From the NCBI GenBank assembly GCA_033980235.1, contig CM067062.1:16311301-16375300 (forward strand): a DNA stretch of 64,000 bases, given 5' to 3'. This DNA comes from Diadema setosum. Lineage: Eukaryota; Echinodermata; Echinoidea; Diadematoida; Diadematidae. The position numbers were made by a program, and so were the translations under genes. The number at the start of each line of letters is the position of its first letter. Positions within the stretch are counted from its first letter, which is position 1. Positions 4,281 to 49,161 of the stretch are shown in pieces. The notes beneath the pieces were generated by a model, which saw only the letters and a program-made list of their open reading frames with translations, was not told the DNA's origin and ran no database searches.

Positions 4281-4311
<31 letters not shown>

Positions 4312-8843: not shown

Positions 8844-8877
<34 letters not shown>

Positions 8878-11668: not shown

Positions 11669-11705
<37 letters not shown>

Positions 11706-13563
11706 AAAGAGACGGAGGATAAGGTGTTGGACGTCTATGACCCAAAATCCACGTGGCAGGAACAAAAATAGGATGTAATGCATAAGGCCCCATTCCACAT
11801 AAAGGAGACCCTTGAGAAAATTTGCAAGCTCCCCCAGCAGTCTCCAAGACAAGATGGAAATAGTGTTTATGTGGAATGGCTTAGAATGAACAAAGCAAAA
11901 CAAAAAAAGCAAAACTTGAAAGATCATTAAAAGAACAAGAAGTAATTTTCCAGCAAATTTCTCAATCAGATAACTTTGTGGGACCTTGAAGATTACTGAA
12001 CGTTCACCATCTTCACTGAGAGACCGATAAGACTCTGGAGAGATCACTGAAAAATAATCAGACATAATTATACTTCCACAGATCTTCGAGAGATCAATCA
12101 TTATCTCTGAGAGACTAATCTTTCAATGATATCCCTCAATGATCTTTCAATAATCTTTCATTGATCTTCTCCAAAAATGTGGCAATTAGAGACTGTCTAA
12201 AGATAATTGAAAGACTACTAAGACCATTGAATGATCATTGAGAGATCGCTGAAAGATTTCTAAAAGACCACAGAAAGACCATTTCATGAAAAACTGCCGA
12301 AAGACTATTTTGAACCGTTTCACTTTTCTTTTCTTCTTTTTTTTTTTTGAGACACAGAGACGACGAAATTCACCGAAAGATCACTCAGGAGGCATGAAAG
12401 ACTTCGGAGATCATAGAAAGTTTACTGAAAGATCACCGAGAGATCTGTCAATTTTTGCGGTCTTTCAGTGGTCTTTCAGAGGTCTTGGCTCAATGTGAAA
12501 TGGGATGTAATCAGTGGCGCCAAATGCGTTGACCATCTATTATTATACTAGCAACAATGAAACGAGCAACAGAGGATGACTCCTTTTCGTCATGTTTAGG
12601 TATGCTGCCTATAGGCCTTACATCACATTATTTTTTTTTTTTTTGTGTGTGTGTGTGTGTGTGAGTCTGTACACAATTATCGTCATCACACACTGAAGTC
12701 AGCATTAAATGCTCTCCCTATAATGGCGCGGAGGAAAACCCCATTCCACGTTCAGGTTGATTTGACAAAAAAAAAACCCGAAAACAAAACGAAAATATGA
12801 AAGAAAAATTGCAATTGAAAAATCCATTCAATTGTCCTTTAACATTGGAATGCATGTATAAAGAAAATTCAACATGCTTTCACTTTTCTAGGGTAACGAA
12901 AGAGCACTTTACAAACCGCTTTCAGAAAACAGGGGGAACCATTACTACTCTTAACATTATATGTCAGTATCAAGTTGTAATTTGTACTTTTCATGAAAAA
13001 TGAATTTTTGCGGAATTCTCTTTATGTTTTCTTTCTATTGTTGTCCACACATGACGTCATGAACTCTAGTAGTCTCCTTATCCGGTGGTTCCAACACCAA
13101 AACTTTCAAAATTCATAACTTTTGCATCGATTGTCCGATTTTCCTCAAACTTTCACTGATGTGTTCTACTAATGTTGCTGCTTTCACTCAATCCACATTT
13201 TTCTTTGGGTTTGGGTTTCCTTTAAAGTCCACCTTGACCTCAGGGACTGAGTCGAAGAGGGGTGGACCAACAAGAGAAAAAAGAAAGAAGAAGAAGTAGA
13301 AAGAAAAAGAATGAAAAAGGCGTAGCACGAGCACAAATCGAAGAAAAAGGAGAAAATTAAGAACACAAACTGATATACTGCGACAGCTAATGAAAAAGAC
13401 AAGAGAAAGTCACATAATGTTGCAGGCCAATGACAGAGAAAAGTGCTAAGAGAGACAGATTTACAGCTATCATAATGATATATACAAAATAGGCCTATAC
13501 TTACCCATCGTAGCGGACAGCCGAAACGAGCGCAAAAAGAGCGGGAAAAAGCAGGAGCTTCAT
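260..13563 (-). CDS. M14 zinc carboxypeptidase (A/B type), copy 1, 3' end outside window
   Basis: Secreted digestive-type metallocarboxypeptidase that removes C-terminal residues from peptides. Eight exons join in frame with GT-AG introns: 13505-13563, 10899-10980, 8083-8301, 6686-6787, 5581-5685, 4484-4594, 2389-2479, 260-468 (978 nt, 326 codons). Exon 1 encodes a signal peptide ([15 protein letters not shown]). Exons 2-3 encode the activation propeptide, with a likely tryptic cleavage after Arg in DETTRSQE. Exon 5 has the zinc ligands in GGIHAREW (His69, Glu72 in bovine CPA numbering). Exon 7 has WRKTR (Arg127) and GVDPNRNY (Asn144, Arg145). Exon 8 has the third zinc ligand in DFHSYSQLW (His196). 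The Cys138-Cys161 pair is kept. The exons carrying Tyr248 and Glu270 lie left of the window, as shown by the complete paralogue at 23126-36492. No frameshift or stop is seen. Confidence 0.93.
847..915 (+). repeat. tRNA-derived SINE-like head in intron 7 of copy 1
   Basis: TGACTCAGTCGG resembles a pol III A box and CCGGGTTGCAAAAACCC a damaged B box, at tRNA-like spacing, with CTTCGAA in the anticodon-loop position. The matching intron of copy 2 (about 26,380) lacks it, so it may have been inserted after the duplication. The broken B box argues against an active tRNA gene. Confidence 0.4.
1117..1196. mobile_element. 80-bp MITE with TA target sites, intron 7 of copy 1
   Basis: Near-perfect terminal inverted repeats (TATGGCAAGCCAAACGTTC) flank a short centre, with TA on each side, as in Tc1/mariner-type MITEs. 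The same element is at the same intron position in copy 2, so it was inserted before the duplication. Confidence 0.75.
1355..1389. repeat. GATA microsatellite
   Basis: Tandem ATAG/GATA repeat in intron 7 of copy 1. A short GATA tract also lies at about 2276-2302, and a broken one in copy 2 at about 26,824-26,876. Lengths differ between the copies. Confidence 0.8.
2586..2900. repeat. Degenerate GTTTGGGTTT / GAGTTTAGA tract, intron 6 of copy 1
   Basis: About 300 bases of short T/G-rich words (GGGTTTG, GAGTTTAG, TTTTAGATC) with no coding sense. Copy 2 has a much shorter version at about 27,450-27,570, so the tract has expanded or contracted since duplication. Confidence 0.7.
3470..3695. repeat. 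Half copy of the GGACAAGTTCACCTTCATA repeat family
   Basis: The sequence TTTAAAGGACAAGTTCACC and the later AGTAGAACACATCA recur at 13,085-13,225, 18,428-18,997, 35,385-35,490 and 60,838-61,855. Complete copies are inverted repeats. This one has a single arm and lies in intron 6 of copy 1. Confidence 0.6.
7336..7736. mobile_element. About 400-bp TTAA-type MITE, intron 3 of copy 1
   Basis: Inverted-repeat element related to those at 44,901, 48,744 and 52,513. Ends read AAAGGGnnnGTACAGT, with an interior AAATGGCTGAGATATCC palindrome. The same intron of copy 2 is empty here, so the insertion came after the duplication or was lost from copy 2. Confidence 0.75.
8886..10866. mobile_element. TTCAGACGGTGATCC MITE, split by a nested element
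   Basis: Outer inverted repeat with ends TTCAGACGGTGATCCT and AGGATCACCGTCTGAA, and interior arms containing CTTCGAGGATAA. It is the same family as the uninterrupted 159-bp element at 35,597. The right half carries the palindromic core GGCGCCAAGTGCCGCACGG. A 1.79-kb element has been inserted between the arms. It lies in intron 2 of copy 1; a half copy remains at the same place in copy 2. Confidence 0.8.
8941..10726. mobile_element. 1.79-kb Harbinger-like non-autonomous element
   Basis: Ends GGCCCGTATTCT and AGAATACGGGCC are perfect inverted repeats, flanked by a 3-bp duplication TAT. Removing the element plus one TAT restores the CTCTATGGGGCGCC of the host MITE. Both subterminal regions (about 9000-9110 and 10,520-10,700) are full of GTTTAAACC words. 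The 1.4-kb centre (9,110-10,520) holds no recognisable protein. GGCCCG ends and a 3-bp target fit the PIF/Harbinger group; the assignment is inference. Confidence 0.75.
11787..12504. repeat. CCCATTCCACAT-bounded element with short GAGATC/CTTTCA repeats, intron 1 of copy 1
   Basis: Bounded by CCCCATTCCACATAAAGG and, inverted, by CAATGTGAAATGGG. The interior is a degenerate mosaic of words such as GAGAGATC, ACTGAAAGAT and AATGATC on both strands. No coding sense. The same type lies at about 34,544-35,370 in intron 1 of copy 2. Confidence 0.6.
12505..13504. other. Rest of intron 1 of copy 1
   Basis: Contains a short T-tract plus GT microsatellite (about 12,630-12,663) and one arm of the TTGTCCGATTTTCCTC repeat family (about 13,085-13,225). 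Otherwise nothing recognisable. The long minus-strand frame across this region is A/T-rich noise that happens to run through exon 1. Confidence 0.5.
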
Positions 13564-13616
13564 CGTGGCAGTTTAGGATCAGAACCCTATAGAGATGTTC
13601 TCTCCGCTGTGACTTG

Positions 13617-13630
13617 TATATATATATAAA
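13617..13630 (-). promoter_or_regulatory. TATA box of carboxypeptidase copy 1
   Basis: A run reading TATATATATATA on the minus strand lies about 55 bases upstream of the start codon at 13563. About 120 bases further upstream stay similar to the same place in copy 2, including an AACGCC(T/C)ACAAAATG block near 13720. Conserved spacing to the ATG supports a TATA promoter, with transcription starting about 25-30 bases before the ATG. The factors that bind are not known from sequence alone. Confidence 0.7.
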
Positions 13631-13759
13631 GATTCGGATTCCTACTGGTCTTTGCCTCCCCAAGTTTACTGGGTGTGAGCAGACTATACAGGATTGAAAT
13701 CAGCCACTAATATATTGTAACGCCTACAAAATGGAGTTAAGCACTGCCCACAATGGTTC

Positions 13760-14855
13760 AAGATTTATTTTCCACGCCCAGTAACTGCAGACAATATGCA
13801 GCGATATATATTTTCAGTCATTCGCTTGCAAGTAGTCCCCCCCCCCCCCCCCCCAAAAAAAAAAACACCCAAAAACAATAAGATATAACATAGAAATACA
13901 AGACGACCGCGGTACTAATACATATCGGCCCCAAACTTTTGAAATGTATAGGAAGCAATGGTAACGTACAAACACGCTGGCCAAAAGAATAATTATCTTA
14001 TCAACAGACTGTCTAGATATGCAGTACAAATACTAGATTTTGTATAATTTGGCAAATTCAGTTACCATATTCAGAGTGGGGTAGAGAGCTGATAGGAGAG
14101 ACACGAGTCATATTTCCCACGCAGTTATGAATAAGGGATAATATAAAATAGTGATAACGACGTGATGGCTAAATAGATCTATTCATAGATAAACAAAAAG
14201 GTAGTGAAAGAATGCAATTTCTTAGGTTACTCTCCATTTTCATATGATTACTATACTTGAATCCCAGTTGTATAATTGGCCTGTGATGACAGGCTGTTTG
14301 CATAATATGACAGGCGCATTGTGTGACTTAATGATGAGCATTTGTATATTGCATTCAAAAGGGTAAATATGTATTTTGTACTTATTTATTTAGTTTCCGA
14401 ACTCATTGAATAGTACAATAGACAACTATTGACAACTTTGCACACACACAAAAAAAGCCAAAATAAATAAACAATAGAATGAAGGAATTAAGAAAAGAGC
14501 CGTAAAATAAAAAATATGGATGGAACATCCATTCAGCTCTTGTCTATGGAGACTAAATAAACATACACAAAATAGCGTACAGTAAGAAAAACAAAATAAA
14601 ACAAAAACGAGGCGAACTCATCAACGTCAGTACAGAAAATAAAAAACACGATATTTTGTCATGGTCAATTCAGACACATGCAAAACTGCAAGGTGGCTCG
14701 TTTACAGGACATTGGTTAGCACCTTGCCATTTATTCTATTTTTTTTTCCTTTATCAGTGGTGAGAATTTTCACAGCTGGCAACCATTCACATGTATGATA
14801 TTAATCAACGGCATATAGCACTGCTGCACGCGAGTTCGCGTCATTAGGACTTTCA

Positions 14856-14887
<32 letters not shown>

Positions 14888-15440
14888 GATTACTGCATCA
14901 CAATACATTGTGCCTGAATGAAGGCGTGACTTACAGTATTCTGAGAAAGGATTGGAGAACCGGGGAATGAGAATCGGAATACAATTCATTAGTGCCGAGT
15001 ACATAAAAGCTGTACCCCCGAACAAGGGGTCGTGTGCAAACCAAAAGTGCAACTCCACATCATTCTCAAGTCGAAGATCGGACCTTCAAGCTCCTTCATC
15101 GGATTGACAGACAGACGGACGGACAGATAGAGGGACAGACTCCCGACAGAGTGATTGAAGTATTGAACAGATCCACATTTTTCCTCTCTCTTGATAATGG
15201 TCACAGTCACCTAAATTTATGTTAATTATCTGAGATAATGATATGATTTGTGTTTGCGCCCAAAATTTTCATGAATGAATGACGATTTTAGTGGATGATT
15301 ACTTTGTACCAACTACAATGTTGTACAACCCTTTCCCCCGGAAAAAAAAGTCAACACTGTTTTTTTTTTTTAATGCAAACAAAACTGTCATGCGAAGGAT
15401 ACAAGTTTTCTTTATCATTCCATGTTAATGAATAGAATTT
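13760..15440. other. Upstream flank of carboxypeptidase copy 1
   Basis: Noncoding. A C-run at 13,838-13,854 and a T-run at about 14,860-14,887. Positions 14,400-15,160 are duplicated at 37,440-38,250, ending in a GACAGACGGACG microsatellite. No gene seen. Confidence 0.6.
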
Positions 15441-22106: not shown

Positions 22107-22241
22107 TTAACGAAACTTCGGAGAAGTGACAACACTTGAAATTTTGTTTTACCAATCTTTAAGTTTATAATAACTCTCGATCTATCTTTAGGAAGACATA
22201 TATGATTATGATTTTGAATTTATGTATCATTCCTGTTATCC

Positions 22242-22447
22242 GGGTCTAGGGCAATTACCCCCTGGGCAATTACCCCGGACCATTCCCCTGGCCCTAATCC
22301 TAATCCTAATCCTGAACCTAATACTAACCCTAACTCAAACTCCTAACCCTAAACCTAACCCTAACTCTTATCTTTACTCTAACCTTACCACTAACCAGAA
22401 TTTAGCCGGGGGGGTAATTGCCCTCTGGGGGTAATTGCCCGGATACG
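22242..22447. mobile_element. 206-bp element with CCCTAA telomere-like centre and 9-bp target duplication
   Basis: CTGTTATCC occurs on both sides (22,233-22,241 and 22,448-22,456). The arms carry GGGCAATTACCCC twice each, inverted. The centre is a run of CCTAAT/CCCTAA/ACCCTAAAC words, like vertebrate-type telomere repeat with errors. It lies between the duplication copies. Confidence 0.8.
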
Positions 22448-22853
22448 CTGTTATCCATTTGTCATTCATTTTCACTGTATTGTTTAGACCAGGGATGTCA
22501 CTTACCTGTTTAGACGAAATAACAATATGTCTTTGATTTTACGTGTGTTTTAAAGTGAAGGCATATATTAGTCAATCATCACCGTCATTAATCACCATTA
22601 ATGTATTAGTGTGGGTATTCATATCATTGTATAGAGAAATTTGGCAGACGTATCTGGAAGAATGGCATGGGTTCAAAAACAGTAATCTGTGACACTTAGG
22701 CCCACGACGAACTTTGCGATGCAATGCAAATCATTTTGAGTCGTTTATTAGTGTAAGCATCTGTATTCAGTACTTGGAGAATCTAAACCTTGATTAAAAG
22801 AATGACACAAGAAAGGAATACTTGAACGCATTTGCACGTTTCGAATAGTCTGT

Positions 22854-22869
22854 TTTATTTGGCTTTATT
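22854..22869 (-). terminator. Candidate polyadenylation signals of carboxypeptidase copy 2
   Basis: Two AATAAA hexamers on the minus strand (22854-22859 and 22864-22869) lie about 260 bases past the stop codon. A third lies closer at 23020-23025, about 100 bases past the stop. Any of them could end the transcript; sequence alone does not decide which is used. Confidence 0.45.
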
Positions 22870-23125
22870 TTTTCTCTTCTCTTCTTTCCCTCCATTATGT
22901 ACAGTACAGAGCGTCACTGTCTGTAGGAATGACCTCCACCGTATATAACAATGTACTTTTCATTTTGCCTTTTGTCGTTTTAAAACAACTCTCAAAAATT
23001 AAAGTGCTCGAGTTATCTTTTTATTTCTAATGATCTGTGAGATAATGAAGGCATTTCTATCATTATTAACATGTAGGTTGATGTGTAACTTTGGAGTTGC
23101 CAATTTAGTCTTCATAGTCCAGGCT

Positions 23126-23711
23126 TCACTTGTATTCCTCCACCATGTGTTTGCAGAGCGCCTTAACAGCTTCGTAAGTCTCCAGTCCGGTCGGCAGGAG
23201 TTGCCGCTCGGGAAGGAGGAAGCCGTACGTGCCTGTGTCCCTCAGCTCCACCACGTACGAGTACTTGGCCTTCAGAGTATCGAAGCCCCAGTCTTCGCTG
23301 CAACCCGACGCCGCATCTGTGGAAGGAAAACCGCGGCAGAGATAGAGTAGCAAATGGAGTGGGAGGGGACGTATTTTGTGCGTTTTGTAAATTTCGAAAA
23401 AAGAATATGCTCAAAACAACAAAAACAAAACAGATACCTTTTTTCTCTCATGATATCATAAGCGGAGATAGATTCAAGCAATGACGCTATAAGATAATGA
23501 TTATGCAAAGATAATCCCACACACTATGTTAAACACGGACATGAACTAACTCACTTCCTACAAGCTTCTCAATTCTCATACACTGTATACAAAATCAAAC
23601 AGGTTCGATGGGCAACAGATTATAAATGGCTCAAACTGATATCGTAGAGGCCGTTTCTTCAGATTAAGTGGTGCCAGCTTAAAACAACACATGTTCCACA
23701 AGCTACTTAAA

Positions 23712-23764
<53 letters not shown>

Positions 23765-26700
23765 TATATATATGCTTCGTAAGATTCTAATCTGAATTAC
23801 AAGCACTATCAGTTTATTTGGTTGAATTCGCAAAGGGGCTGAAATCTTCCGTTCCGTGTTCTTTTCAGGACCGTCTACATGTACACTTACATAGAGTCCT
23901 GGCTGATGGTCCATAGATGTATTCGGTTCCGTAGACACTCTGCAAGGCGTTCACGGCTTTAGCGGAAGCTGTGTCCTTCAAGGCAGAAACAGTGGTAAGA
24001 AGAAGTTTGTTGAGTGATGCAGCTCAGAGGTTAGTTGTAAAGAGTTTGTGAAGAGCACGGGAGATGGTGGAAGGACAGTATTAATTTTAGTATTGATAAT
24101 TATGTAATAATGTTATGTGATGGTTTGACGACTGTTGGGAGGTAACTGATGCCAGTATTGTTGGCAGGTGTGTGGTGGTAAGTTTTGTTTTTTGTTTTTG
24201 TTTTTGTATGACGGCATATTAGTGCTGGGACTCCTCCTAATCTGAACACGGTTACAGGATTTTTAAAAAGATATAATAGCATGAGGAATGACGAGAGGAA
24301 AATTGTAGTATTCATAGAATGTACATGTGGAGGATTATTAGCAAAATTAGTGAACTGTTGGCGATCAGGGAGATCGTTGGCAAGACGATGTACATAAGAC
24401 TCTGGAGGTAGGAACATTATTACATGATTGCTGAGTATACTGTGAAATGCAGAGGATGAGCACTGATGTATAGGTGAATGATGGCAGAAAAAAAAATAGT
24501 GGATACTATGATCAATGTGATGGCATGAAAACATGAGTTGGAGATATTGCGCTGAGAGGGCCGATATGAGGTTAAGATATTTGGCAGGGCGATTATTGGT
24601 ATTGCGCGTCAAAATCGCTTATCGGCGAAGTGACAGGAATTTTTTATAATAAAGTCAGGAAAAATAATGCAATAGCAACAATACTGGACAAAATAAAGAT
24701 AGACATTCTAAAACAAAAGGAGAAAATACACATAGCCGGGTCTTTATTTTTTGGGTCAAACAGGAACAGATTAACATGATGGCTTGAACTACCTTCTCAT
24801 CGAAGATTGGTGTTATGTGCAGATAATTACCTGTTATCTAGAAGGTGCCTCGTCAAACTGCCTCGTTGAATCATTTCACATCTTGTTAGCATTGGTGGTA
24901 CTTAGGTTATGGGTCTTGGATCATGAATAGTTAATTAAACTACAAAGTGTGTTGTTGGAAGATGGCATCGATCGAGAAGAGGAGGATAATGCAATGATAA
25001 TGATGGGAATAAAAAAAAATAGTAAACTTCTATGACACTCAAACTATACTCATAAGACTGAAGACGATATCAAATAACAAAATAATAGAATATGAAAATT
25101 AATGAACGCTGTTTGTGTGTCGTGAATTTTATGAATTATATTTTTGTTTCCCTTTTTTTCCTTGCTATGTCTATCTTTAGTTTGTTTTCCTGTCTGTTCC
25201 GTCCTTGCTTTGGTTCTTGTCCTTGCTTTGGTTCTTGTCCTTGTCATAGTCTTTTCTTTCTGTTTCCTCTGACGTCATGATATCAAAATTTTCATACATG
25301 AGTCCTAGATGGATCATTAATTTGATGCCCTTATCTTCCAGAGTAATTCACAAAATTTACACGCTATGCTTCTCTTGTGAATTCCTCTTTTCCATATACA
25401 GTTAAAAACTTATTTATCAAAATATAAAACGGATGTTATTATGATTGTATACATTCAATGATTTGTTAAAAGCCTGTGTGATTCAAAATTCCTAAAAAAT
25501 ATCCTGTACTCATGTAAGCGCTATGTATACAACTTTGTATTACTTTATATGGAAATAAAATCATTTGAATTTGAATTTGAATTTGCATTTGAATAGCAAG
25601 TGTTTTGCCTTTTCATATCCAGAATGCATTGACATCATTGTTATCACTGCAGTCTTTATCGTGTGTACTAGGATCTAGACATGTCTTGTTTTCCGTTCCC
25701 ATCATCCTAAACAAAATAGATGAAAATGATGTACGGTAAAGTTCTTCACTATCCATCAAATCCTTTATACCCCGATCCCGCCCCGCCCCTCCAAATCCCT
25801 CCCCATCACCCCGACCGCCATCACTCACGTGATCGTCCTTCTCCTGCGGGAGGATGGCCCTTGCCGTGTATGACCACGGTGCCAGCCACAGCTGCGAATA
25901 GCTGTGGAAGTCGATGAAGCAGACGTACTCCTGGTTGGAATCGAGTAGCCACTGAGTAGTTTGATCGACCTCGGGCTCGGAGGCTGCCTTAGGCCCACGA
26001 TACGTGTCGGAACACGGGCTGGTGCTGGCGCCTTCGCCTGTAACATTTATTGCAATAGTGTATATTAAAAATGCAAATAGGTCCTACAAGTTTGTTACTC
26101 CGAATACTCTGAATTAAAAAAAAAAAAAACGACAACAAGAACAACTTGGTAGTGACATCTTCAATTATCATGATTACAATGTGTGATTACTCGAATCTGG
26201 TGGGCAGAAGAATTGAATCACCTCTGTGTTTTGAATATCAGTCAATCGAATACATCTTGATGTGGGCTACACAACGTATGCTAAGCCCTTATTAATCAGG
26301 GTTCAATTTTTTTTTTCCATACGGTACAACATTGCTCTTTCAAAGTCGGGATTTTAACAAAGAATGCCACAGACCAGATGATTACAATCGTTTTCCACAT
26401 ACTGGGGAAAATACGATTGTGTCATCGGAAAATTTGAGGTCGCGTCGTTACGGATGTCTTTTAGTTATAATCAGACGATGTCAGTTTTGATAACGAAAGA
26501 ACTTTCATGAGCTATAGTGCACGTGATTTCAGAAAGTGCAGTGCACATGTTACAATGTACCTTATTATAGTTCTACATGAGTATATGGCAAGCCAAACGT
26601 CCCGTAAATCGGTCGATAAACCGAGTTTTTCGAATTATTGAACATTTGGCTTGTCATATACGCAGTCGCAGGCATTCACAAATTTAGTTCCTTTTCAAGT

Positions 26701-29700
26701 AGAACTTGTTGCCTGAGCCATCAAGCTGTTCTGTCTAGATACGGCCATAACACTGAGGTAGAAAATCTGAAAGCACAGTCCACATGGAACAAAATATGAA
26801 CACAGTATAGGCCCTATAGGAGGATAGATAGATAAATAGATAGATGAATGAATGCATGCAGATAGATAGATAGATGGGCCTACATGACAGAATGGCAAGA
26901 GAAAGAGAATGAAAGAAGGAGAGAAAGAGAGGGAGAAAAAGAGGAGTATGAATAAATTGGTATATGAAGACATTTTTTCCAGACATACCTCCCCACTGGT
27001 AGGGGTAGTTCCTGTTAGGGTCGACACCACGGCAGAGGCTGCCGGCGTTGTTGGCGCGAGTCTTCCTCCACAGACGGTCCTACAGAAGAGAAAGAGTGAG
27101 AGAGCGTAAAAAATGTTCAACACCGTTCAGTAAACACTTTGTATAAAGGGTCCGGGAAGCGTTTTTTTTAAAGACGGCACAGATTGGGGCATGGCGCGTG
27201 TTAAACCTATGGGAAAAACGTTGGGTTAGGGTTTTTGGTTATGGTTATGGTTAGGGTTAGGGTTAGGGTTGGGGCTAGGGTTAGGGTTAGGGTTAGGGTT
27301 AGGGTTTGATGGTTAGGGTTAGGATTAGGATTAGGGTTAGGTTTAGGGATAGGGTCCCCGATAGATTTTTAGTTTCCCCAATCTGTGCCGTCTAAAAAAA
27401 ACACGCGTCCGGGAATGGAACAACAACGATATGTATCTCTAACATCTTGTGTTTGAGATTGAATTTTACTTGAGTGTGTGTTTCGGTTTGGGTTTGGATT
27501 TGAATTTGAGTTTTAAGGTTTGCATTCTGAAATATGAGTTTTGGGTTATGAGTTTGAGTTAAAGTCCATTTTCACTTTTGCCCTTTATGATCACAGTATA
27601 GGCCCATGTTCAGGCCCGTGCCTATGAGGGAGGGAGGGAGGATAGATGTACGGGGGTAAGGACCCTCCCGCTCCCCCGCTGGCGAGCAGTGCCTTCTTGA
27701 ACAAGATTTTATTTTACGTTTAAAGATATTTCTCTCCCCATGATTATGACCGTTGGTGGTTTTGTTTTTTTGTTTTGTTTTTTGTTTTGGTTTTTAAGAG
27801 TCGGATATAGACTTCAAATTATCTAATCAGCAATACAGAACAATCATACAACGTATACAGAATTTAGACAGGTTGGATTATTTTTTAATGAAATTTTAAT
27901 AGAAAACCATTACGTTAAAATATTTCACCCAAACTGTTCACCAGGGTCCAGCTTTAAAAAGACGCGGTGCGAAGCACAGCAACTGGGCTGTGTATAGTTA
28001 GTTATCAGTAACTGTCACATTTCTGTAAAAAATTTGTTCTCAGCCAGATTGAAGGATTTCAGTAGCTTATAAAAACTAATAGTAACTTGTTATCGATAAC
28101 AAGTTTTATGAAACGGGGCCCAGATCGTTGAAACCCAATTTTAAAATTAGATAAATGTATGAATGAGGCGGTATGGGAGGGATATCGCTCGGTCACTTAA
28201 ATATAGGTTTTCCCGGTCAATTTCATACTTTTGTCATTCAAGTTCCTCTTCCGAGCATTCGATTTCACGCTTTCCACGCTCGCAGCACTGAATCAGCAAT
28301 CAAATTCAAAATCCGGTCATTCGAATTCACTATCCGAGCATTCAAATTCATTGTCGGAGCATTCAAATTCACTATGGGAACATTCAAATTCACTATCGGA
28401 GCATTCAAATTTAAGAGAGGAGCACGCATTTCATTAATGAGCATTCAAATTCATGTCAAGCTGGCGGCGGAATCTCGTCGGTCATTCAAATTCGTGAATA
28501 GGCAACCATGTTCCAAATAACTGCGTTCAATTTAAAAGAAGTCCTGAATATAGTTAGTTTGGGGCCGTGTATGCATGTGTTACTCATTTGGCTTTGAATA
28601 TATTGGGATTTATGATGATTATTTATTTTGCAGTAGAGGTCCACCTGTTCATTGACAAGTTTGAACTCGCGCTTAGCAAATAGGAATATACAGGCACATA
28701 TCCCTCGGATTGGACATGAAATGGAGGTCCTATGTGTGAGAGAGTCACAACTCATACGCGTAAAAGATCCCACCTCATTTATTCATCGCAAAGAGCAGAA
28801 CATCCAACTGGACCCAATACGGAAGACCAGCTTTTGCAGCTGAATATGGGTTATCCAGCCATGTTCTTTGATGGAAAATGAAACAAACAAACAAACATTA
28901 CGCACTGTAATAGGCCTACAGACGAGCATTATACGAATGTTTGGTTGACGCTTTCGAGGGAAAAAAACACAATTTCGACTATATTGAAACTGATACATGA
29001 ACATTTTATACGTGTTTTTTGTTGTGTATTGCTGTCTTATTGATTTACTTTTGCGGGACTATGTGAGATCATTGTGTGTCAGTTTGTCTTTAAATTGATG
29101 AATTGTCATTCAGTGGCTGGTGTTCGGGCGTTGTCAGCACGCAGTATCATCAAAAACTATGATTACTAGTCGTTGTGTTGTTTGGATGCACTGCTGATTG
29201 GACATTACAATTTGAAATTGATTGAGATGAAAAACAAAGAATACAAGAACAGAGAACAACGTAGAACCTGTAAACAACAATAATTACACTATATGCAAGC
29301 CTCCATTGGTTATGTTGGCCCTTTTTGCTTTCTTAAAAGTCCACTCCATTTTCCTCGTTAAATTGATTACACGAAGTAGGAACCTGATCGCCTAAAAATG
29401 AATTTGAACGATCCAAACAAGCTCATTGGGACAGTCACGTGACTATCGCGTGAATTTGAACGCACGAGTAGGAAAGTCGGTGCTCGCATTTTGAAATTGA
29501 ATGCCCAATCGTGAATTTGATTTCACGAAAACGAAATAGAACGCCCATGAATGAAATTGATCGCTCGGATTCTGAATTCGAATGCCCGAATATTTTCACG
29601 TGCGTGCGCTGCGTGAATTTGAATGCACATTAATGAATTTGATTGACAAAAGTATGAAATTGACCGGGAAAACCTATATTACATTTTCATATGATTTGAT

Positions 29701-30928
29701 CAGTGAATAAGAAAGTCACGAAATGATTAAAGAATTTACTTTATGGAGTGTGTGTTGTTTTTGTTTTTTTGGGCATCTTGAAAAAAAAAACGTATCGTAC
29801 TACTTTTGATAGATTTTTAAAGCCATTTTTTTTTCCAAAATATTCCACAAAAGTGTGCACCAGATCGTTGAATTTCCTCTCTTACAAATGCAAAACCTCA
29901 CTCGTGTATAATGTGCGTGTGTGTGTTTTTTTGTTTTTGTTTTTTTTTTTTGGGGGGGGGGGTAGGCAAACGCGACGTTTATTGACTCCTATGAAATCTA
30001 CGAAATTGAAATCGAAATTGAAATAGTGACTGTATGCAACTGAAAATGTGCTTACAACACCGTTTCCAGAAATTCTATAAAGTGATATTATGAGCTACAA
30101 TTCAAATCGGAGAAGATTGTCAATAAAAATCGTTTCATTTTAGCATAAGCTCACGTTGGTCCAGGTGTAAATGTATCCATCGACGTTGAGTGAGGGGACG
30201 ATGACGAAGTCGAAGGTATCCAAGATCTCTGTCACATCAGGGTCAATTCCGTAATTTTCGAGGAGCTGCATTAATGAAATGATACCGCATTTCGTTAGTT
30301 GTTCTTTTTTTTTTCAAAACCTAGAGCCAGATCTAGATCTAAATCAGGGCTAACTGTTAGTCCTCCTCCTAGATACAGGCTTAGATCTATTTTGGTCTAG
30401 ACCAGGCCTATATCATGTGTTGTATAAAAGATATTCAATGTTTTCTCATTCGTGCGACAGTTCGAATTATAAATTCGGTGCAAGTTTAACCATTCTATTC
30501 AACTCCGCTTCGCGTCGTTGAATAAAACGGTTAAATTCGCACGCTCATGTAATATTTGGAAGAATCGCACTCATAAAGGTTAACTATTTGTATATAACAT
30601 TTCTATAACATCGATCGTTAATGATCGTAACTGAAGGATATTGAAAGTTTGACAACTTGGCCGACAATGAGCGTGCGCACTGGATAGGTATTGAACTCGG
30701 AATCTTCCGTCTCTCGATCCATTTACGGTGGTCAATCCGCCGCAACACGACATGATTCTAGCTCCCGCATACTTTACGCTATGAAGTCTGCACTTACCGA
30801 GTTGGTGATGAACATGACAGTGGCTGGTGAAACCCATTCACGGGCGTGGATACCACCCTGCCAGTACACCGCCTTCTTAGTTCCGACGCCACCAGTGCGA
30901 ATCTAAAATTGGCAAGAAAGGGTGTATG

Positions 30929-30974
<46 letters not shown>

Positions 30975-30988
30975 TTTGCTCAAAGTTT

Positions 30989-31028
<40 letters not shown>

Positions 31029-34000
31029 TAATATAGTGTCATAATCAACATTTAGAGTATCTTGCATCACATGGAAAGGATAATTATAACATAAAATTTA
31101 CTGACTGTGTTGCACTTTATTTCGGTTGGCTTGAACCACTGACACTGAAACGAGGACGTCCTAAATTCGTGCCCATTAAGTGTTTATAATATGCAACAAA
31201 AGTGATCAGAATGCGTATAATTTGCGTTCAAAAGTGATCTCTCTTTAGTCTTTTCCTTGTCTTCTCACATCTCCACGTACTCTATCGCTAATATCATAGC
31301 ATCATTATACGCTAAATCCATAATTTATGATTGTTTCAAAACACTTCTCATCTAGAACAAGTTTGTTTTGTTTGTTGCTTTTTTTTCTGTTTTTTGTCAC
31401 AAACCAGAACTCAATTTCGCACTTGATATCGCATACTAGTACAATGTAACCCCAACAATTCAGAGAAAGCTTGCCACGCCAAGAATTCTAGTGTGTCACA
31501 AAACTATGAATAACTATGAATAATTTACTTGTTCATTCAACTGTTGCATCATTCTGAGGAAAGTTCTGACTGACCTAACTCAACAATATATGAATATGAA
31601 AGCTATCTAATTTTCAGGGTTGCAAAAGGGAGATACAAAGTTTATAATAATGGTGACTACATTAAGGAAGCCATGTACCCATTACTGCGAATGACAACGT
31701 ATTATGCATAGTTGTATTTCGGAAGTTGAATACTTTCATCTTTACTTTTAACATTAGAATTTCACTTCTCTAAAGTATTATGAACTCTACGCATGAATTC
31801 GAATAAGCGTAAGACTACGCATGACTCATAAGGCCTGCGAAGAACTTACGCACAACTTTAAGGAGCTTTGTGAAACAAAATTCAATTTGTGCTTAAGCAC
31901 TGTCAAATTACATGTAAAGGCCTGATTCGGGGAGTTTCGCATGAGTCAAAGTCTAGTTGTGAAACAACTAACCCCTGAATGTTATATATTATAAATAATC
32001 AGCATAGTCGATATCATAGACTCACCTTGAGTGCATTGATTTGTCGTCCCTCTCCAGATTCGGCAATTTGAAATCGCTCAACAATCGAGCTGTACTGAGT
32101 TGCAATATCAGCCGTCCACTGCTGGATCTGTTGGGGTGCAGGCGAAAGCATATTTCATAATCATGATGATAATGATATTATTCTCATTTTTGCGTCATCC
32201 AACTGACTCTTGTGCATTTTAATCCTCATAAAGCTTTGACTCCACAGAGAGTCAGTGCCACAAAATATTTAAGACCGAAGCTGATTGTATACTAGTACCA
32301 TGCATAGTGAAGAAGTGCCAGTAATCTATAATATCCTTGTTCTTCCAGACATAAAACGTATTCTGCTCTATAGATGGTCAAGTTCCGAATAAAAGGAAGG
32401 TTGACCAATGGTCAACGTCAGATAACTGATGATTGTTTATTTGAAACTGTACCGAGTGCAAGCTGATGGTTTGCATATCATATAGACTGCAGAAACTGAC
32501 TGTCATGAATTGTCAAAGACAGAGCCTGGTCTTACCACATTTTGAGGCACAACGAAATCCTTGTTTTTCCAACCATTTAACAGACTTTCCCTTGAATTTC
32601 TGTTATAAACTGATCTGAAAAATGTTTGACTCTTGAATAGAATCGTATGAGATCATTTTCGCAGTGTGATAGAAACTCAGTTTTTAAGTCCAGAATTACT
32701 CAGGTTCTGAGATTTATTTTTCCTTACTAATTACTCGATAGAGTGGATGCAATTTGTTTGTTATACGAGCAATGTCTTTGAATCAATAGTTTTCGTTTCA
32801 AAGATTATGTTTAAATTCTCTATCATTGACTGACATTCATTTCAAACGGTAGCAACATAAGACACAAGTCATCCGATCGATTGATTTCATCCCCAAACAA
32901 AAGTCTAACAACCAAAGACTTACCTCATCGTACGTGTGGTATACGCTGTAATCGAAGTCGGCAGCCGTGTCGATTTCTTGAGAACGCATGGTCTCGTCGA
33001 TCAAGGCTTGGACGTCGTTGATCATGACGGAGAACTCGAGTCCTACGGACTCCAGAAGTTCCTTAAACTCGTCCAGGAATCGCGGTGGAACGAGGACATC
33101 AGTGGAGCGCTTAGTGGTGTGCGGGTGCGACCAGAAGTTGATCTGCACATCGAGCCGTAATCAAAACATGTTATTATGATTTCTTAATTGGTCTTTCTGT
33201 TTTTAGTATTCTGCATTAACATGGATCCATTCCATCCTTTTGCAGTTGTTTAAATTTGCAGTGATTTGCAGCTACCACAAAAACTTAAATTCCAAGCATT
33301 GTTGTTGTTCTTTTTTTTTCACTTCCTAACTGTTACCAGAGTGACTGTAATTGCTGAATTGTACAATAATTGCAGACCTCTATGAGAATAGGCCCTATAT
33401 CCGGGTCTATCAAGCTCACCTAGTCTTATTTTCATGTTTACAATTGTGTGTAGTAATTCTCTGTAGAATTTAAAGGACAGTGAAATATTCAAGTGACGAC
33501 ATATGATATTAGCATTAAAACAGTTGAAGTTGGCAAGTTTTGAATGTATAGAGAGGAATACTATGGGATACAACCAGGTCAATGCTAGTTTTGTATCGTT
33601 TATGCTGGAATCTACATGACTGTATGCATTTTCTTGCTATAATGGTTGGAGGATGAATACACAAACACAAACGCCATTTGTTACGAAAACGACCGTGCGA
33701 CACATGGCGCCCCATAGATCTTATCCTCGAAGTGAGCTTATCCTCGAGGATAAGGATCATCTTATATAGGCCTACTTGTATGTTCATAAGAGCTCACCTG
33801 TCCGTCTAGTTTGGACTCGAGGGAGGAAAGGAATTTCAGCTGGGTTTCGTCACGCGGCTGGATGGAAAGAGTTTGGTATCTGTTCCAAAACACCAGAAAA
33901 CGAAGCAGAAGGATTCATGAAAGTGGGTTTCTTTGCGGCCGGAGAGGATTTGGTATGCTACAGGGTTAGGAATAAGGCTAGGAGGTGGGATAGGTGTAGG

Positions 34001-35763
34001 TGGAGGGAGAAGTGGTGTCATTGTGTATAGGGTTATCTCAAATTTGGGCAGAGACCAGACACGCAGCAATCGGAGTGCCATTGTACGTTAGAACCGAAAT
34101 CTGCGTTTAACTTTAATCTTTATGTACGCTGGCAGTTGCAAACCGTATTGAAAACAATAAATGAACGGTAATGCGAAACAATGACAGAAAGACTGAAAAA
34201 AGGACGGGATAAGGTACAGTATGAAAACTGAAAGGGTTCGAGTTTTTAGGCTCTTTATATCCAAAGCTATCCTAATGCAAAACCTGCCTAAAGTCAGGAT
34301 CCTTTTGCTCTAACAAACAAATGTTATGACAGAGATCCAACGAAAGACAAGCATTTTTTTTTTCTTTTTTAATAGGAGGGCTAAGAATGCCATAGAGTCG
34401 CCCATTTGTATGCCAGGGAAAGTCTTATCACAAACAAACAAGTGGAAAGATTGTTTTAGCCAAAGATATGCGCGTGGGATACAGCGTTGCATGTCTGTGA
34501 CCAAGATCCATGTGGCCGCAGTTATAGGATAAACTGCATAAGGTCCCCATTCCACATGTAAGCGAGACCCTTGAGGGACCACAGAGAGACCATAATGGAA
34601 AGAGTTTCTATGTGAAATGGCTTAAAATAAACAAAGAAAAACAACATGAAAGATCATTAACAGAACATGAAGCAATTTTCCAACAATAGAATTTTCACTG
34701 AGATTGCCAAATGTTCACCAAGAGACCAATAAGACTATTGAGATATCAGTGAAAAATCATCTGGACTATACTCCCTGAGATGTTTGAGAGATCAATCAAG
34801 ATATCTGAGAGATCCCTCAGCAGTCTCCAATGACCGCAATGGTCATTGGATGGTCATCAAGGATTACTCATCGAGTAATCCTTGAAGGTCATCAAAGATT
34901 ACTCGATGATCTCTCAACAATCTTTCAGTGATCTTTAAAAAAAAAGTGGTAATTCTTGAGATACTGTCAAAAGAAAATTGGGAGACTGGAGCGAAGACCA
35001 AAGAGTGCTCGTTGTGAGATCGCTAAAACACTACTGAAAGACCACTGAAAGACCATTTTCACGGAAGACTGCCGAGAGACTATTTTGAACCACAAAATTC
35101 AGTGAAAGGTCACTAAAACCCCCATTCCACATAACTGAGCACCTCGAAAGACCATTGAGAGGCCAAGATTCCTCATCAGTCTCCAAGACCAGATAAAAAA
35201 GCGTCTATGTAGAATGGCTCCAAAAACCGTTGATAGATCACTGAAAGGTCGACCAAAAAGTAATTTTCCAACAAATTTCTCAGAGATCTCTGTGAGACCT
35301 TGAAGTTTGCGAACGTTCACTGAGAAACCATTAAGATATTGAGAGATTACTGAAAGATCATTTCATTTTGAAATGCACCCATGGCAGCGATCAAGCCATT
35401 GCTACACAGAAACGTTAAAAATTCATATTTTTTAAACGGACTGTCCGATTTTACTCAAAACTTTCACTGATATAATAATAATATCGCTTCATTTACTCAA
35501 ATCACATCATCTTGAGTTAACTTATACTTTACTTATACTTTATTAGAATCGCAAAGTAAAGTAAACTAACATCGTGACCATATAAACATAAATTGCGTTC
35601 AGACGGTGATCCTTAACATCGAGGATAATTCCAAGATAACTTAGGATATAAGCTCTACGGGGCGCCAAGTGTCGCACGGTCAATTTTGTAACGAAATCGA
35701 CCGTGCGACACTTAGAGCCCAATAGAACTTATTCTTGAAGGATCACCGTCTGAACTCACTGTA

Positions 35764-35799
<36 letters not shown>

Positions 35800-36492
35800 G
35801 AAAAAATGAATGAAAATGCCGTAAAATACATTAATGGTCCATTGTGCTTCAGTGTTTCATATCTAAAGGGCCTAAACCAACTTGTGTCACTTTAGTCCTG
35901 AAATCTGAGATGGGACGGGGAAAGGTCCATTCTTTTTATATATTATATAGCCGTGAGACCTAAATGAATAGAAAAAGGCAGGGGCTTTACTTATAATTCC
36001 TTTAATCGTTACGTGTTTTTTTTTTTCTACGCACACTAGGCTTGCGATGAACCGCATAAGCTCAGGCTTTTTTTATAACAAAGATACATACATGCTTTAA
36101 CATTACTCCCCCCCCCCCCCCCCAGCTGTTGCATGTTCAGTTAAGTGCATCCTCATCCCATCTTGTAAATAAAGTTTAAAGTTCACCTTGACCTCGGACC
36201 GAGTCGGAGAGGAATGGACCGACAAGAGGAAAAAGAAAAAGCAGAATGAAAAAGAAGGGAAAAGGCGAGGTAAGAGAACAAATCGAAGAAGAAAGAGAAT
36301 ATTGAAGCCACAAACTGACATACTGCGACTGCTAATGAAAAAGAGAAGAGTAAGTCACTGGTCAATGACGGAGAAAAGTCCTAGAAGAGATAAATCTATA
36401 ATAATATAGAATAAATGATGGTATTATACTTACCCATCGTAGCGGACAGCCGAAACGAGCGCAAAAAGAGCGGGAAAAAGCAAAAACTTCAT
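23126..36492 (-). CDS. M14 zinc carboxypeptidase (A/B type), copy 2, complete
   Basis: Complete secreted procarboxypeptidase of 417 residues; mammalian CPA1 is 419. Exons, all with GT-AG borders: 36434-36492, 33798-33879, 32924-33142, 32026-32127, 30798-30902, 30155-30265, 26989-27079, 25829-26037, 23891-23975, 23126-23316. Signal peptide [15 protein letters not shown]; propeptide of about 95 residues ending near DETMRSQE. Catalytic set is present: zinc ligands in GGIHAREW and DFHSYSQL; Arg127 in WRKTR; Asn144-Arg145 in DPNRNY; Tyr248 in RTLYAASG; Glu270 in VVELRDTGTYGF. Cys138 and Cys161 are kept. The residue aligned with specificity position 255 is Glu (ASGCSEDW), so a preference for C-terminal Lys/Arg, as in carboxypeptidase B, is likelier than the CPA preference; this is inference. 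Protein differences from copy 1 are few (10 of 70 in exon 8, 7 of 73 in exon 3, 1 in exon 2, 1 in exon 7). Confidence 0.96.
23725..23772. repeat. A-run plus (AT)n microsatellite, intron 9 of copy 2
   Basis: About 20 A followed by about 20 AT units. Confidence 0.9.
24000..25540. other. Intron 8 of copy 2, unassigned portion
   Basis: No protein motif in any frame. A 170-codon minus-strand frame at 24,100-24,612 has no recognisable domain. A small 18-bp tandem (GGTTCTTGTCCTTGCTTT) is at about 25,203-25,240. Part of this may be the body of a LINE whose tail is at 25,540. Confidence 0.4.
25540..25596 (+). repeat. LINE-type 3' tail with (TTTGAA)n
   Basis: TATGGAAATAAAATCATTTG runs into four TTTGAA/TTTGCA units. 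Such short tandem tails end many CR1/jockey-like LINEs. No RT is visible upstream, so the assignment is tentative. Confidence 0.4.
26584..26658. mobile_element. Paralogous copy of the TATGGCAAGCC MITE, intron 7 of copy 2
   Basis: Same ends and centre (AAACCGAGTTTTTCGA) as the element at 1117-1196, with several base changes in one arm. It is a shared, pre-duplication insertion. Confidence 0.75.
27159..27406. mobile_element. 248-bp element with TTAGGG telomere-like centre and 9-bp target duplication, intron 6 of copy 2
   Basis: GTCCGGGAA flanks both sides (27,150-27,158 and 27,407-27,415). Ends GCGTTTTTTTTAAAGACGGC and, inverted, GCGTGTTTTTTTTAGACGGC continue into CACAGATTGGGG. The centre is many TTAGGG units with a few variants. 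Copy 1 has the empty site (about 2545, GTGTGGGTAATGG). Confidence 0.88.
28205..29685. mobile_element. 1.48-kb long-TIR element with CATTCAAATTCA array, intron 6 of copy 2
   Basis: Ends AGGTTTTCCCGGTCAATTTC and the exact inverse, each continuing into TCATACTTTTGTCA. The left arm holds about ten copies of a 20-bp unit built on GAGCATTCAAATTCACTATC (28,310-28,480). The right arm has inverted GAATTTGAACG words. The host intron of copy 1 (about 4,060) lacks it. No transposase is seen. Confidence 0.8.
30936..31027. repeat. (AT)n tracts, intron 4 of copy 2
   Basis: Two AT runs separated by TTCTTTGCTCAAAGTTTTCA. Copy 1 lacks this expansion. Confidence 0.85.
33684..33755. mobile_element. Half copy of the TTCAGACGGTGATCC MITE, intron 2 of copy 2
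   Basis: Retains the core GACCGTGCGACACATGGCG and the right arm up to GGATAAGGATCATC. The left arm is deleted. It is paralogous to the right half of the element at 8886-10866. Confidence 0.7.
34544..35370. repeat. CCCATTCCACAT-type element(s) with GAGATC-rich interior, intron 1 of copy 2
   Basis: Paralogue of 11,787-12,504, with a second CCCCCATTCCACATAACTG start at about 35,120, so two elements or an internal rearrangement. The interior has an inverted repeat near 34,855-34,910 (CAAGGATTACTCATCGAGTA). No open frame of interest. Confidence 0.55.
35597..35755. mobile_element. Intact 159-bp TTCAGACGGTGATCC MITE, intron 1 of copy 2
   Basis: Perfect ends GTTCAGACGGTGATCCTT and the reverse. The centre is a palindrome reading GGCGCCAAGTGTCGCACGG, then CGAAATCGACCGTGCGACAC. 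No clear target duplication is seen. It is the best reference copy of the family here. Confidence 0.8.
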
Positions 36493-36543
36493 CGTGGCAG
36501 TTTGGGATCAGACCCCTAGAGATGTTGTCTCCGCTGTAACTTG

Positions 36544-36552
36544 TATATATAA
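36544..36552 (-). promoter_or_regulatory. TATA box of carboxypeptidase copy 2
   Basis: TTATATATA on the minus strand sits about 52-60 bases upstream of the ATG at 36492, matching the copy 1 position. The leader between TATA box and ATG is nearly the same in both copies, including GAGACAACATCTCTAGGG in copy 2. The upstream similarity continues past 36680, so both genes kept their promoter after duplication. Confidence 0.72.
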
Positions 36553-36788
36553 GGTTTCGGATTCCTATATGTCTTTGCGTCCGCAAGTAGACTGGTTTAA
36601 GCGGATTACAGGAATTAAAGTGACCACTAATAATGTAACGCCCACAAAATGCAGTTCAGCACTGCCCACAAAAGGTTCGTCCGCTAAGTAGTCTCATCTC
36701 CCCCCCCCCCGAAAAAAATAAATAAAAAAATAAAACTAAAACAGACTAAACATAAACTGTGTGAGTTGATGATGACCTATGCATTTAA

Positions 36789-37415
36789 AGAGCAAATCCA
36801 CCCCAAAAATAGATAAAATTTAAAAAAGGGGGAAAACTCCTTACAGAACGTTCCAAAAATGACAAAAAATGGATAAGAATTAAGGAAGATTTGACATTTT
36901 TTGAATATCACATTTTTCCTTTCAGAAACATTTCTTATGAATATCAAAATAAGAGTTGATGATGGCATAGATGCCCTATAAAATTTTCCATGTATTTTAT
37001 AAATGAAATTCGGGGGGGGGGGGGGCGGGAATCTCATTTCTAGCTAATACAGGTAAAAGCATACTAGTATTCCCATACCAAAATACAGTATGTCAGAGGT
37101 AACCTTTGTTCGTTTCTATTTTGGGTGGAATTAAGGCAAGTGTTTTATTTTTACACAACTGAAATATGAGGATTTTTATCATTTCTGTATGTGGAATATT
37201 CAAGAAATTGTGAGAGCATGACATCAACTGGCTGATTTGAATATTCATAACGACTGGTCAAGAAGTGGTTTCCGAAAAAAAAAAAACAAACTGAAATTTC
37301 AGAATGTCATAACTTCCTTATTTCTTAGCCGATATTTTGATCATTTTTGCACTTTTCTGCATGGATTCACTTCTTTGTCTTATGAAATTAGTAACATTTA
37401 CAGTGGATTTCTTCT
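36789..37415. mobile_element. 600-bp TTAA MITE
   Basis: Flanked by TTAA. Left end AGAGCAAATCCACCCC, right end CAGTGGATTTCTTCT, with inverted internal blocks (GACATTTTTTGAATATCAC versus GAAATTTCAGAATGTC). It lies upstream of copy 2 and contains a G-run at 37,012-37,026. Confidence 0.75.
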
Positions 37416-37782
37416 TTAAAGGTGAACATGTATTTCTAGTCATTCATTCAGCAATCGAATTCATACATTATTTAAAAGTACAATAAAATGACAAAATTGC
37501 AATACAAGCAAAATAAAGCAGACAATATAATGAAGGAATTTTTGAAAACAACCGTTACTATGGAAGGAACATCCATTCGGCTCTTGTTTACGGAGACGAG
37601 GTAATCAAAATAGAAAAAATAGCGAACAGTCAGAGAAACAAAACAAAACAGAACAAAAAAAAAAACAGGCAATCTCATCAACGTCAGTACCAAAAAAAAA
37701 AAAAAATCTTTTGTCATGGTCAATTCGGAAATTGAAAACTACAAGGTGGCTCGTTTACAGTACATTGGTGAGCAGCTTCCCA

Positions 37783-37815
<33 letters not shown>

Positions 37816-39091
37816 TAGTCGTGAGAATTTTCACAGATGGCAACCCTTTTACACCCTTGTATGATATCAATCAACGGCATATAGCACTACTGCACACGAG
37901 TTCGCATTATTAGGACTGTTTACCCTGTTTTTAATCTTCATCGCCTGATTACTGCATCGGAAGGCGGGACTTAGTCCGACCAGGGAGATCCACCTCCCTG
38001 GTCCGACCATGTCCAAGAAAGGATCAGCGAACCACGGAGGTGGTAAGAGAGTGTCGGAATGCAACTCGTGCCGAGTGCATAAAACTGGACGCTGTGCGCA
38101 GTGGTTTCTCTGCGCGGTGATTCATGGGGTCGTGCGCAAATCAAAAGGGCAACTCCACACCATTTTCAAGTGGAAAATCGGACCTTAGAGCTCCCTGATC
38201 GGACCGTCAGACAGACGGACGGACGGACAGACGGACAGAGTGGCTTAAGTATCAACTTAGTCCAAGAACATTAGGTCAAAAAAGGCTTAAACCTGGACAT
38301 TTTTGGTAACAAGCTGATTTTTTTTTTTCAGGATAAGGTCCAGAAAAATGTATTGAATAACATACTAAAAGTCCTCATAAATCCTCTTTGAGCGTTTTCC
38401 GCAATCCTAGATGGCGTCCAAAATGGCCGCCATTTCCTGAAATTTTTATAACCTTTTAACTAGGCAACCAAATACAAAATTTAAGTGTCTATGTATCAAA
38501 ACATGAAGAACTCAATAAAATACATATTAAGAGATGTTTACGCACGCATGTACTGATTAAACCGCTCGAGCACTTCCTAAAATGCAAAATGGCGTGCAAA
38601 ATGGCCGGCGGTCACAATCTCACAATTATCTCAATAAATGTTAGTATAGTTTATAAGAAACTTTTTATTCCAAAAATAGTTCTTATGTGTAAAGAATACA
38701 AATAAAAACATTTGGATGTTAAACTCAAGGAGTGTGTCCTTGTTACGAGAAAAACATTTCACCATCAGATTCGTTGCTAAACAGAGAGCCTACTAGAAGG
38801 CAATATCTTTTTACCACAATACATATGGTCTATTTTCGTCACCTCAAGCACATGAGATGAAAATTTAGTGCTAGCCCTTTTTTATTACCAACGCATTTGA
38901 TGTCTACCATGAGGTGAGTTCCATTTGAAACTATCAGTCATCACTTAACAAGTAAACACAATTCTTTTTGATGTCTGTGCTACATACTGTTCAAAATTAG
39001 AGTCTAATTGTGCTACAAAATAATGTGTAATTCATCACATGACAGTGAATTTCTTTGGTGCAGTATATATATTGCTCCACCTAAAAACATA

Positions 39092-39393
39092 GGCCCGAAT
39101 TCACGAAGGTGGTACAGATGAAACCATGGTTTAAACCATGGACAAAAAACATGGAGCGCCAAGTATCGCATGGAATATTTCGTTACGAAACCAGTCATTG
39201 CGTTAATGAAATTATTATTTTGTACCGAAATGACAACAGTTTGTGAACATTTCGTGAACAAAACGGTCGTTTTGTCGACGAAATGACCAATTTCGTAACA
39301 AAATATTTCGTGCGACACTTGGCGCTCCATGGTTTTTGTCCACGGTTTAAACCATGCATGGTTTCATTTGTACCACCTTCGTGAATTCGGGCC
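39092..39393. mobile_element. 302-bp Harbinger-like MITE with ATA target duplication
   Basis: Perfect ends GGCCCGAATTCACGAAGG and its inverse, flanked by ATA on both sides. Arms continue through CATGGTTTAAACCATGGACA and GGAGCGCCAAGT...CGC to a TTTCGTTACGAAA centre. It is nested in the foldback element. The 3-bp target and GGCCCG ends match 8,941-10,726. Confidence 0.85.
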
Positions 39394-44900: not shown

Positions 44901-45289
44901 TTAAAGGGATTGTATAGTTTTCGTTGAGATCTAATTTCACGTTTCTAACATTTTTTGGTGAGATAATGAGAGATCTCTTATAACATATGAAAGAGCATGT
45001 AATTCCACATGGAATTCATCGTTTATTTGATGAAAACTGGTTTTGAAATGGCCGAGATAACCAATACAGAGCGATTCAATAAAGTGTGGGACCCACATTT
45101 TATTTTGATCACTTTGTTTTACTTTGTTTTTGGATGTTTCAGTCATTCCAAACCCGATTTTCATCAAATAAACCTTGATTTCCTCTTAAAATGGTATGCT
45201 CTGTACTGTTTCGTAAGTGTTTTCTTGGTATCTCACAAAAAGTTAAAAGCCCAATTCTCATCTCCACCAATACTGTACTATCCCTTTAA
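44901..45289. mobile_element. 390-bp TTAA MITE
   Basis: TTAA flanks with AGGGATTGTATAGTTTTCG and, inverted, ATACTGTACTATCCCT. Interior GAAATGGCCGAGATAACC and its inverse. Confidence 0.8.
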
Positions 45290-48622: not shown

Positions 48623-48743
48623 ATGTGATGGACAAGACATGTGCTAAATCTTGCGAGTGGCAGGAACTTTTTGTTTCAACAGGTGTAGCTCCAATACCAC
48701 TTTGTTAGAGAACCATAGGCCTATATGGGAGACCCACTGTGTA

Positions 48744-49136: not shown

Positions 49137-49161
49137 TTCTTGGAGTCTGAAATGGCAATTA

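Follow-up and report, generated by a model that had tools for sequence, protein, structure and literature searches.

The stretch of DNA analysed here (the window) is 64,000 nt long and corresponds to positions 16311301–16375300 of contig C4 in the genome of the echinoid Diadema setosum (886 Mb, 96 contigs). It includes a duplicated gene with matches to an M14 carboxypeptidase and its propeptide, the tandem copies of which lie at 41–15139 and 25611–38239, and two short elements that each enclose an array of the telomere-like hexamer TTAGGG. Both elements are miniature inverted-repeat transposable elements (MITEs), which are tiny non-autonomous DNA transposons, and they represent two of four inverted-repeat families with a telomere-like core that are designated F1 to F4 below.

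Two GGGCAATTACCCC motifs lie at each end of the F1 element (22242–22447, 206 bp), which has a core of 111 bp (22286–22396) that reads CCCTAA on the forward and TTAGGG on the reverse strand. It is bounded by exact copies of the 9-bp target duplication CTGTTATCC at 22233–22241 and 22448–22456. The F2 element (27159–27406, 248 bp) has ends that are alike over 31 bp (27159–27189 and 27376–27406), a core of 136 bp (27220–27355) with TTAGGG on the forward strand, and exact copies of the 9-bp duplication GTCCGGGAA at 27150–27158 and 27407–27415. The two exact duplications and the unrelated terminal repeats are as described in the original prediction, which was made from the letters of the window, and its third, worn copy of the first element near 62,366 was also recovered. 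This copy (62360–62516) is 81.6 % identical to the F1 element, has lost its right end in a G run, and has no target duplication recognisable in its alignment. In all, GGGCAATTACCCC has five matches in the window, including one at 62375, a number reached in 0 of 100 shuffles, and the F2 end 18-mer AGACGGCACAGATTGGGG, with up to three mismatches allowed, is found in the window only at the two ends of F2. The F1 core fits (TTAGGG)n at 81 % (score 110) and the F2 core at 92 % (score 194), where the maxima in 300 mononucleotide shuffles were 22 and 29, respectively.

The F2 element had been held to be a real insertion and not a healed chromosome break, and this stands, as the paralogous intron of gene copy 1 shows the empty site. 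The F2 element is absent there, and a single target-like stretch is found in its place, at an alignment gap located at about 2531–2546. An array of the TTTGAG/TTTGGG type lies near this empty site, at 2610–2754 in the intron of copy 1, and a worn counterpart is found beside the F2 element at 27491–27542.

Copies elsewhere in the genome

A first look at the genome produced 2,777 candidate copies of F1, and there were 910 candidates for F2. For each family 40 were scored, and 30 F1 and 20 F2 copies were fetched; as these were drawn from the best-scoring copies, both samples are biased toward young ones. All 40 scored F1 copies are 94–100 % identical to the query across at least 205 of its 206 bases. 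Among the 30 fetched, the flanking duplication is an exact 9 bp in 13, an exact 8 bp in 12 and 9 bp with one mismatch in two, and none was recognised in three (the border of one copy, L053, was shifted by 1 base by hand). A strict length of 9 bp does not apply to F1, in which duplications of 8 and 9 bp are about equally common. At locus L054, repeated F1 end units of the GGGCAATTACCCC type form a row like a minisatellite (positions 80–300) beside an F1 copy.

The 40 scored F2 copies are 86–100 % identical across at least 198 query bases, and duplications were found as an exact 9 bp in 14 of the 20 fetched, an exact 10 bp in one and 9 bp with a single mismatch in one, with none in four. The expectation that genome copies would show 9-bp duplications fails in part, for the 12 of 30 F1 copies with 8 bp. 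Genome-wide, the F2 arm 18-mer occurs 597 + 593 times and its reversed control 0 times. The first 100 arms listed include 39 opposed pairs, of which 38 are 148–229 bp apart; in the outlying pair, at 945 bp, the 351 bases read begin with an arm and CCCTAA words and continue into other DNA. Eight F2 arms in which the next base is G or T were considered as a new class and rejected, as the three that were read are all ordinary F2 copies. Two F2 copies lie in close succession in L124 (positions 103–394) on contig C1.

Target of F2

Target preference was assessed in 24 F2 copies, of which 17 have a 9-bp duplication with no more than one mismatch, namely the 14 fetched copies with exact duplications, L087 (one mismatch), the copy in the window and L085b. 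In all 17, position 4 is C, position 6 is G and position 5 is either G or C; position 3 is C in 16, and position 7 is G in 13 and C in four. CCGG is present in 14 of these 17 targets compared with 0.6 % of random 9-mers. Hence, F2 targets centre on a CCSGG-like palindrome whose axis of symmetry coincides with the midpoint of the duplication, as would be expected of a palindromic target read by two transposase subunits. In L144, TCCCAGGCA was seen by eye on both sides of an F2 copy, and the central base of the target may therefore be free.

Two further families

F3 was defined from locus L127 on C1, which has perfect 39-bp inverted ends, and in many copies the ends match in inverted orientation over about 83 bp. 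Of 101 genome candidates 40 were scored, and these include, in addition to the query, 15 copies with 79–85 % identity across 267 or more of the 276 bases and two with 90–93 % identity across 230–235 bases. All seven copies fetched have a telomere-like core, with 5 to 16 CCCTAA words, the fewest (5) being in L142. Target duplications are exact over 8 bp in L137 and 8 bp with one mismatch in both L142 and L138, the latter in a T-rich flank. Weaker cases are L140, with an exact 7 bp at a shortened end, and L141, with three mismatches; the duplication was not assessable in L136 and L139, and that of the query itself matches at 6 of 8 positions. F4 is known from two copies alone, locus L116 on C1, with 25-bp inverted ends, and a second copy in the spot-sampled stretch L078 in which the array is weaker.

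Location of telomere-like arrays

The telomere of this genome is (TTAGGG)n, with a (CCCTAA)n array opening C5 and a (TTAGGG)n array closing C1. Genome-wide, exact (TTAGGG)4 occurs 5,353 + 1,254 times, telomeres included, and the reversed control 0 times. Four perfect hexamers, (TTAGGG)4, were used to define interstitial loci on one chromosome, C1, where reading gave 29 distinct non-terminal loci, 26 of them fetched and three coinciding with known copies (two F2 and one F1). Of these loci, 27 lie inside inverted-repeat elements of the four families (21 in F2, including L114, which has one F2 arm only, four in F1, one in F3 and one in F4), and two lack inverted ends. As 21 of the 29 loci belong to one family, they cannot be counted as independent, and the independent count is four families. 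In a spot sample of 14 stretches of 10 kb (140 kb), all three runs found are in F2-like elements. An inverted-flank score of 30 or more was reached by 22 of the 26 fetched C1 loci compared with 4.3 % of 3,000 random spots; the worn F1 copy (20), L111 (25) and L114 (15) fall below it. In the window and the stretches together, inverted flanks border five of six telomeric-type arrays versus one of 67 other short-unit arrays, this one being a TA repeat. On this chromosome, most interstitial telomere-like repeats hence appear to be carried by F1 to F4. The possibility, raised with the original prediction, that such runs are equally common without the F1 and F2 ends is mostly refuted by the 25 of 29 C1 loci that carry them.

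Interstitial arrays could also have arisen by separate telomerase-aided repair of a break at each locus, or as scars of chromosome fusion. Passages of PMC2246262 describe interstitial TTAGGG arrays made by telomerase-aided break repair, sometimes with target duplications, so that a duplication is in itself compatible with repair; those passages describe neither inverted ends nor copies of one insertion. Repair of this type would join the repeats directly to unrelated flanks, an arrangement that fits L107 and is not found in F1 to F4, all of which have inverted ends. In F1, F2 and F3, moreover, the copies agree in their borders and have one core in common. With 27 of the 29 C1 loci in these families, and with F1 and F2 contradicting it through their genome copies, this explanation is extremely improbable.

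An F2 end match to L131 (14 bp, E 0.002) was taken as chance. Capture of subtelomeric DNA was considered and rejected, the linkers beside the arrays giving, among the matches listed, only repeat-word or weak ones to the chromosome-end stretches compared. A degenerate repeat of the GGGTTATTAGGGTTTTGA type is found just inside the C1 telomere (L133) and near the start of C2 (L067).

Inheritance of the core

The order of hexamers in the core is common to F1 and the worn F1 copy (z 8.5, 0 of 400 shuffles) and is weakly shared by the two F4 copies (z 2.4, 5 of 400 shuffles), and in alignments the F1, F2 and F3 copies read have the same core pattern within each family. These observations indicate that the core is part of the element and that it had imperfections before the copies spread. 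The idea of a telomere-repair event at each insertion is not supported because the copies of one family share one inherited core. The original prediction of a like interior in two families is upheld, and the number of such families rises to at least four.

Between most families, hexamer order gave z values of −0.4 to 1.2, and the linkers beside the arrays differ. These differences count against the suggestion that a single family acquired the array, which then reached the others through gene conversion or recombination between repeats. However, the cores of F1 and F2 have slightly more order in common than shuffled sequences do (z 2.8, 4 of 400, and z 2.2, 10 of 400), to about the same degree as the two F4 copies, and one donor core, or exchange, may account for these two families. 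For the set as a whole we regard exchange as improbable.

A chance TTAGGG-like seed may instead have grown by slippage, with no link to telomeres. The array differs in length between F2 copies by hexamers, and in F3 it varies widely, as slippage would produce, and MITEs with other simple repeats are on record in the parts of PMC6947457 and PMC5615363 that list them. However, growth of this kind does not account for the presence, in four unrelated families, of the very unit that makes up the telomeres of this genome, and of the other short arrays sampled just one, a TA repeat, lies between inverted ends. We consider slippage unlikely.

A further alternative is that the core was selected, the array helping a MITE to multiply, for example if bound telomere proteins shield the ends after excision or maintain open chromatin, with core-bearing families alone becoming numerous as a result. 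The occurrence of such a core in at least four unrelated families, set against one in 67 other short arrays between inverted ends, favours this, as do the similar core lengths (111 bp in F1, 136 bp in F2, 138 bp in F3 and 115 bp in one F4 copy). It is harder to reconcile with the 30 fetched F1 copies, in which the middle diverges from the consensus by 3.4 % and the ends by 0.3 and 1.0 %, with the shrinkage of the F3 core to five words in L142, or with the presence in the window of MITEs that have no telomere-like core. We regard selection as rather unlikely.

Origin and spread of the families

Elements that duplicate their target on insertion, with an empty site in one case, exist in many copies that have the core where they were read, and they have four unrelated sets of ends. 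The best overall explanation, and probably the correct one, is that F1 to F4 are MITE families in which the core was gained once by each founder and then spread by transposition. Under this explanation, short elements with inverted ends, in which no gene was found, would be moved in trans by a putative transposase made elsewhere that cuts staggered targets of 9 bp for F2, 8 or 9 bp for F1 and about 8 bp for F3. Each founder would have gained a TTAGGG array once between its ends, now mostly about 100–140 bp long, and transposition would then have spread the array of each founder. In favour of this explanation are duplications of 8 or 9 bp in 27 of the 30 F1 copies (two of them with one mismatch) and exact ones of 9 or 10 bp in 15 of the 20 F2 copies, together with the lower divergence of the F1 ends than of the F1 middle. 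The founding itself might have occurred when the interior of a parental transposon was lost because repair of an excision gap was interrupted, with telomerase or chromosome-end DNA then patching the broken ends. This is the least supported step, and we propose it only tentatively.

Several observations weigh against the explanation of MITE families with a founder-derived core. No recognisable duplication flanks three of the 30 F1 and four of the 20 F2 copies, one further F2 copy having a mismatch, and F4, in both its copies, has no clear target duplication. When 19 F2 copies on C1 were searched permissively, nine exact 9-bp duplications were found, some with implausible borders, and an arm is missing in two of the 19. 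The 39 opposed pairs among the first 100 listed F2 arms include no longer, gene-bearing member, and no transposase turned up for any of the four families, no dedicated search having been completed. Arrays without inverted ends exist: L107 and L131 on C1, the latter 20 kb from the chromosome end, two runs near the start of C3, at 4.8 and 5.4 kb (L068), and short runs in a subtelomeric repeat at the start of C2 (L067) and at 11063–11082 in the window. The order shared by the F1 and F2 cores, noted above, also counts here, and nothing points directly to telomerase.

Other inverted repeats in the window

The window has 1,114 pairs of 9-bp direct repeats that are 80–1500 bp apart, and among these the F1 and F2 elements rank first and second by ungapped identity of the inverted ends. 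When a gapped score is used, both are outranked by five pairs that overlap one another within a palindrome at 39.1 kb. This palindrome (39092–39393) is about 300 bp long at 80 % and has the direct repeat GGTTTAAACC near its ends. A palindromic repeat of about 390–400 bp is present in four copies (7336–7736, 44901–45290, 48743–49138 and 52513–52903), each of which matches itself inverted; by run count, this MITE-like family has no telomere-like core.

Relationship to known elements

F1 and F2 are short and have the inverted ends and target duplications of MITEs (of 8 or 9 bp in F1, rather than one length), and many copies with identical borders are found for F1, F2 and F3, F4 having two copies. 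Merlin elements produce target duplications of 8–9 bp, a length shared by F1 and F2 and not specific to Merlin. The telomere-bearing elements (TBEs) of ciliates are likewise transposons associated with telomeric repeats; these lie at the ends of the TBEs, whereas they form the core in F1 to F4. MITEs with tandem repeats have reportedly been described from Xenopus (the Xstir type, by Hikosaka and Kawahara in 2004), from insects, with (GTCY)n, by Coates in 2011, and from Donax by Satovic and Plohl in 2013. Such MITEs, cited in PMC6947457 and PMC5615363, are likewise short inverted-repeat elements through which a tandem array has spread. F1 to F4 differ from them in that their array consists of the telomere unit of the host genome and is found in four families whose ends are unrelated.

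The target duplications of F1, F2 and F3 also fall within the 8–11 bp given for Mutator-like elements (MULEs) in passages of PMC6446971. The Mutator/Merlin-like transposition suggested in the original prediction agrees with the duplication lengths and is a candidate assignment. According to the same passages, Rehavkus elements, from Arthropoda and Annelida, have 9-bp duplications, ends of 26–400 bp and a minisatellite beside the 3′ end. In duplication length and ends combined, F2 alone agrees with Rehavkus, as F1 mixes 8 and 9 bp. The families studied here differ from Rehavkus in that their array has 6-bp units and is central in the element. The transposase of Rehavkus has a PHD finger.

No title or abstract naming telomeric cores in MITE families was found in the literature searched, a weak test of novelty with many subscription journals and Repbase outside the search. 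A single literature match for the end sequences, a paper on an Aspergillus cosmid, was taken as unrelated. The doubled F1 motif was found in 0 viral contigs and 0 contigs of prokaryote genomes. The F1 15-mer has 34 sites in viral contigs, none with a second motif within 300 bp and eight with one or two telomere words, and was set aside, as was a single match of the F2 18-mer in a viral contig, taken as chance. A translated F1 frame gave five candidates among predicted proteins, none at E 0.01, and there were no Rfam and no tRNA hits.

Significance

Interstitial telomeric repeats are usually taken as scars of chromosome breakage, break repair or fusion. On C1 this reading would mislead because 27 of the 29 loci are cores of small transposons from four families. 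The question raised is why one telomeric module recurs in families with unrelated ends, and the CCSGG-like palindromic target of F2 offers a sharp handle for finding its transposase. It is conceivable, though we hold it to be rather less than probable, that unrelated MITE families were repeatedly born through a telomeric module, or kept for it, and that the birth of MITEs is in this way tied to telomere maintenance. If this is true, the elements supply nearly all of the interstitial telomere-like sequence and would have placed binding sites for telomere proteins at hundreds to thousands of internal loci.

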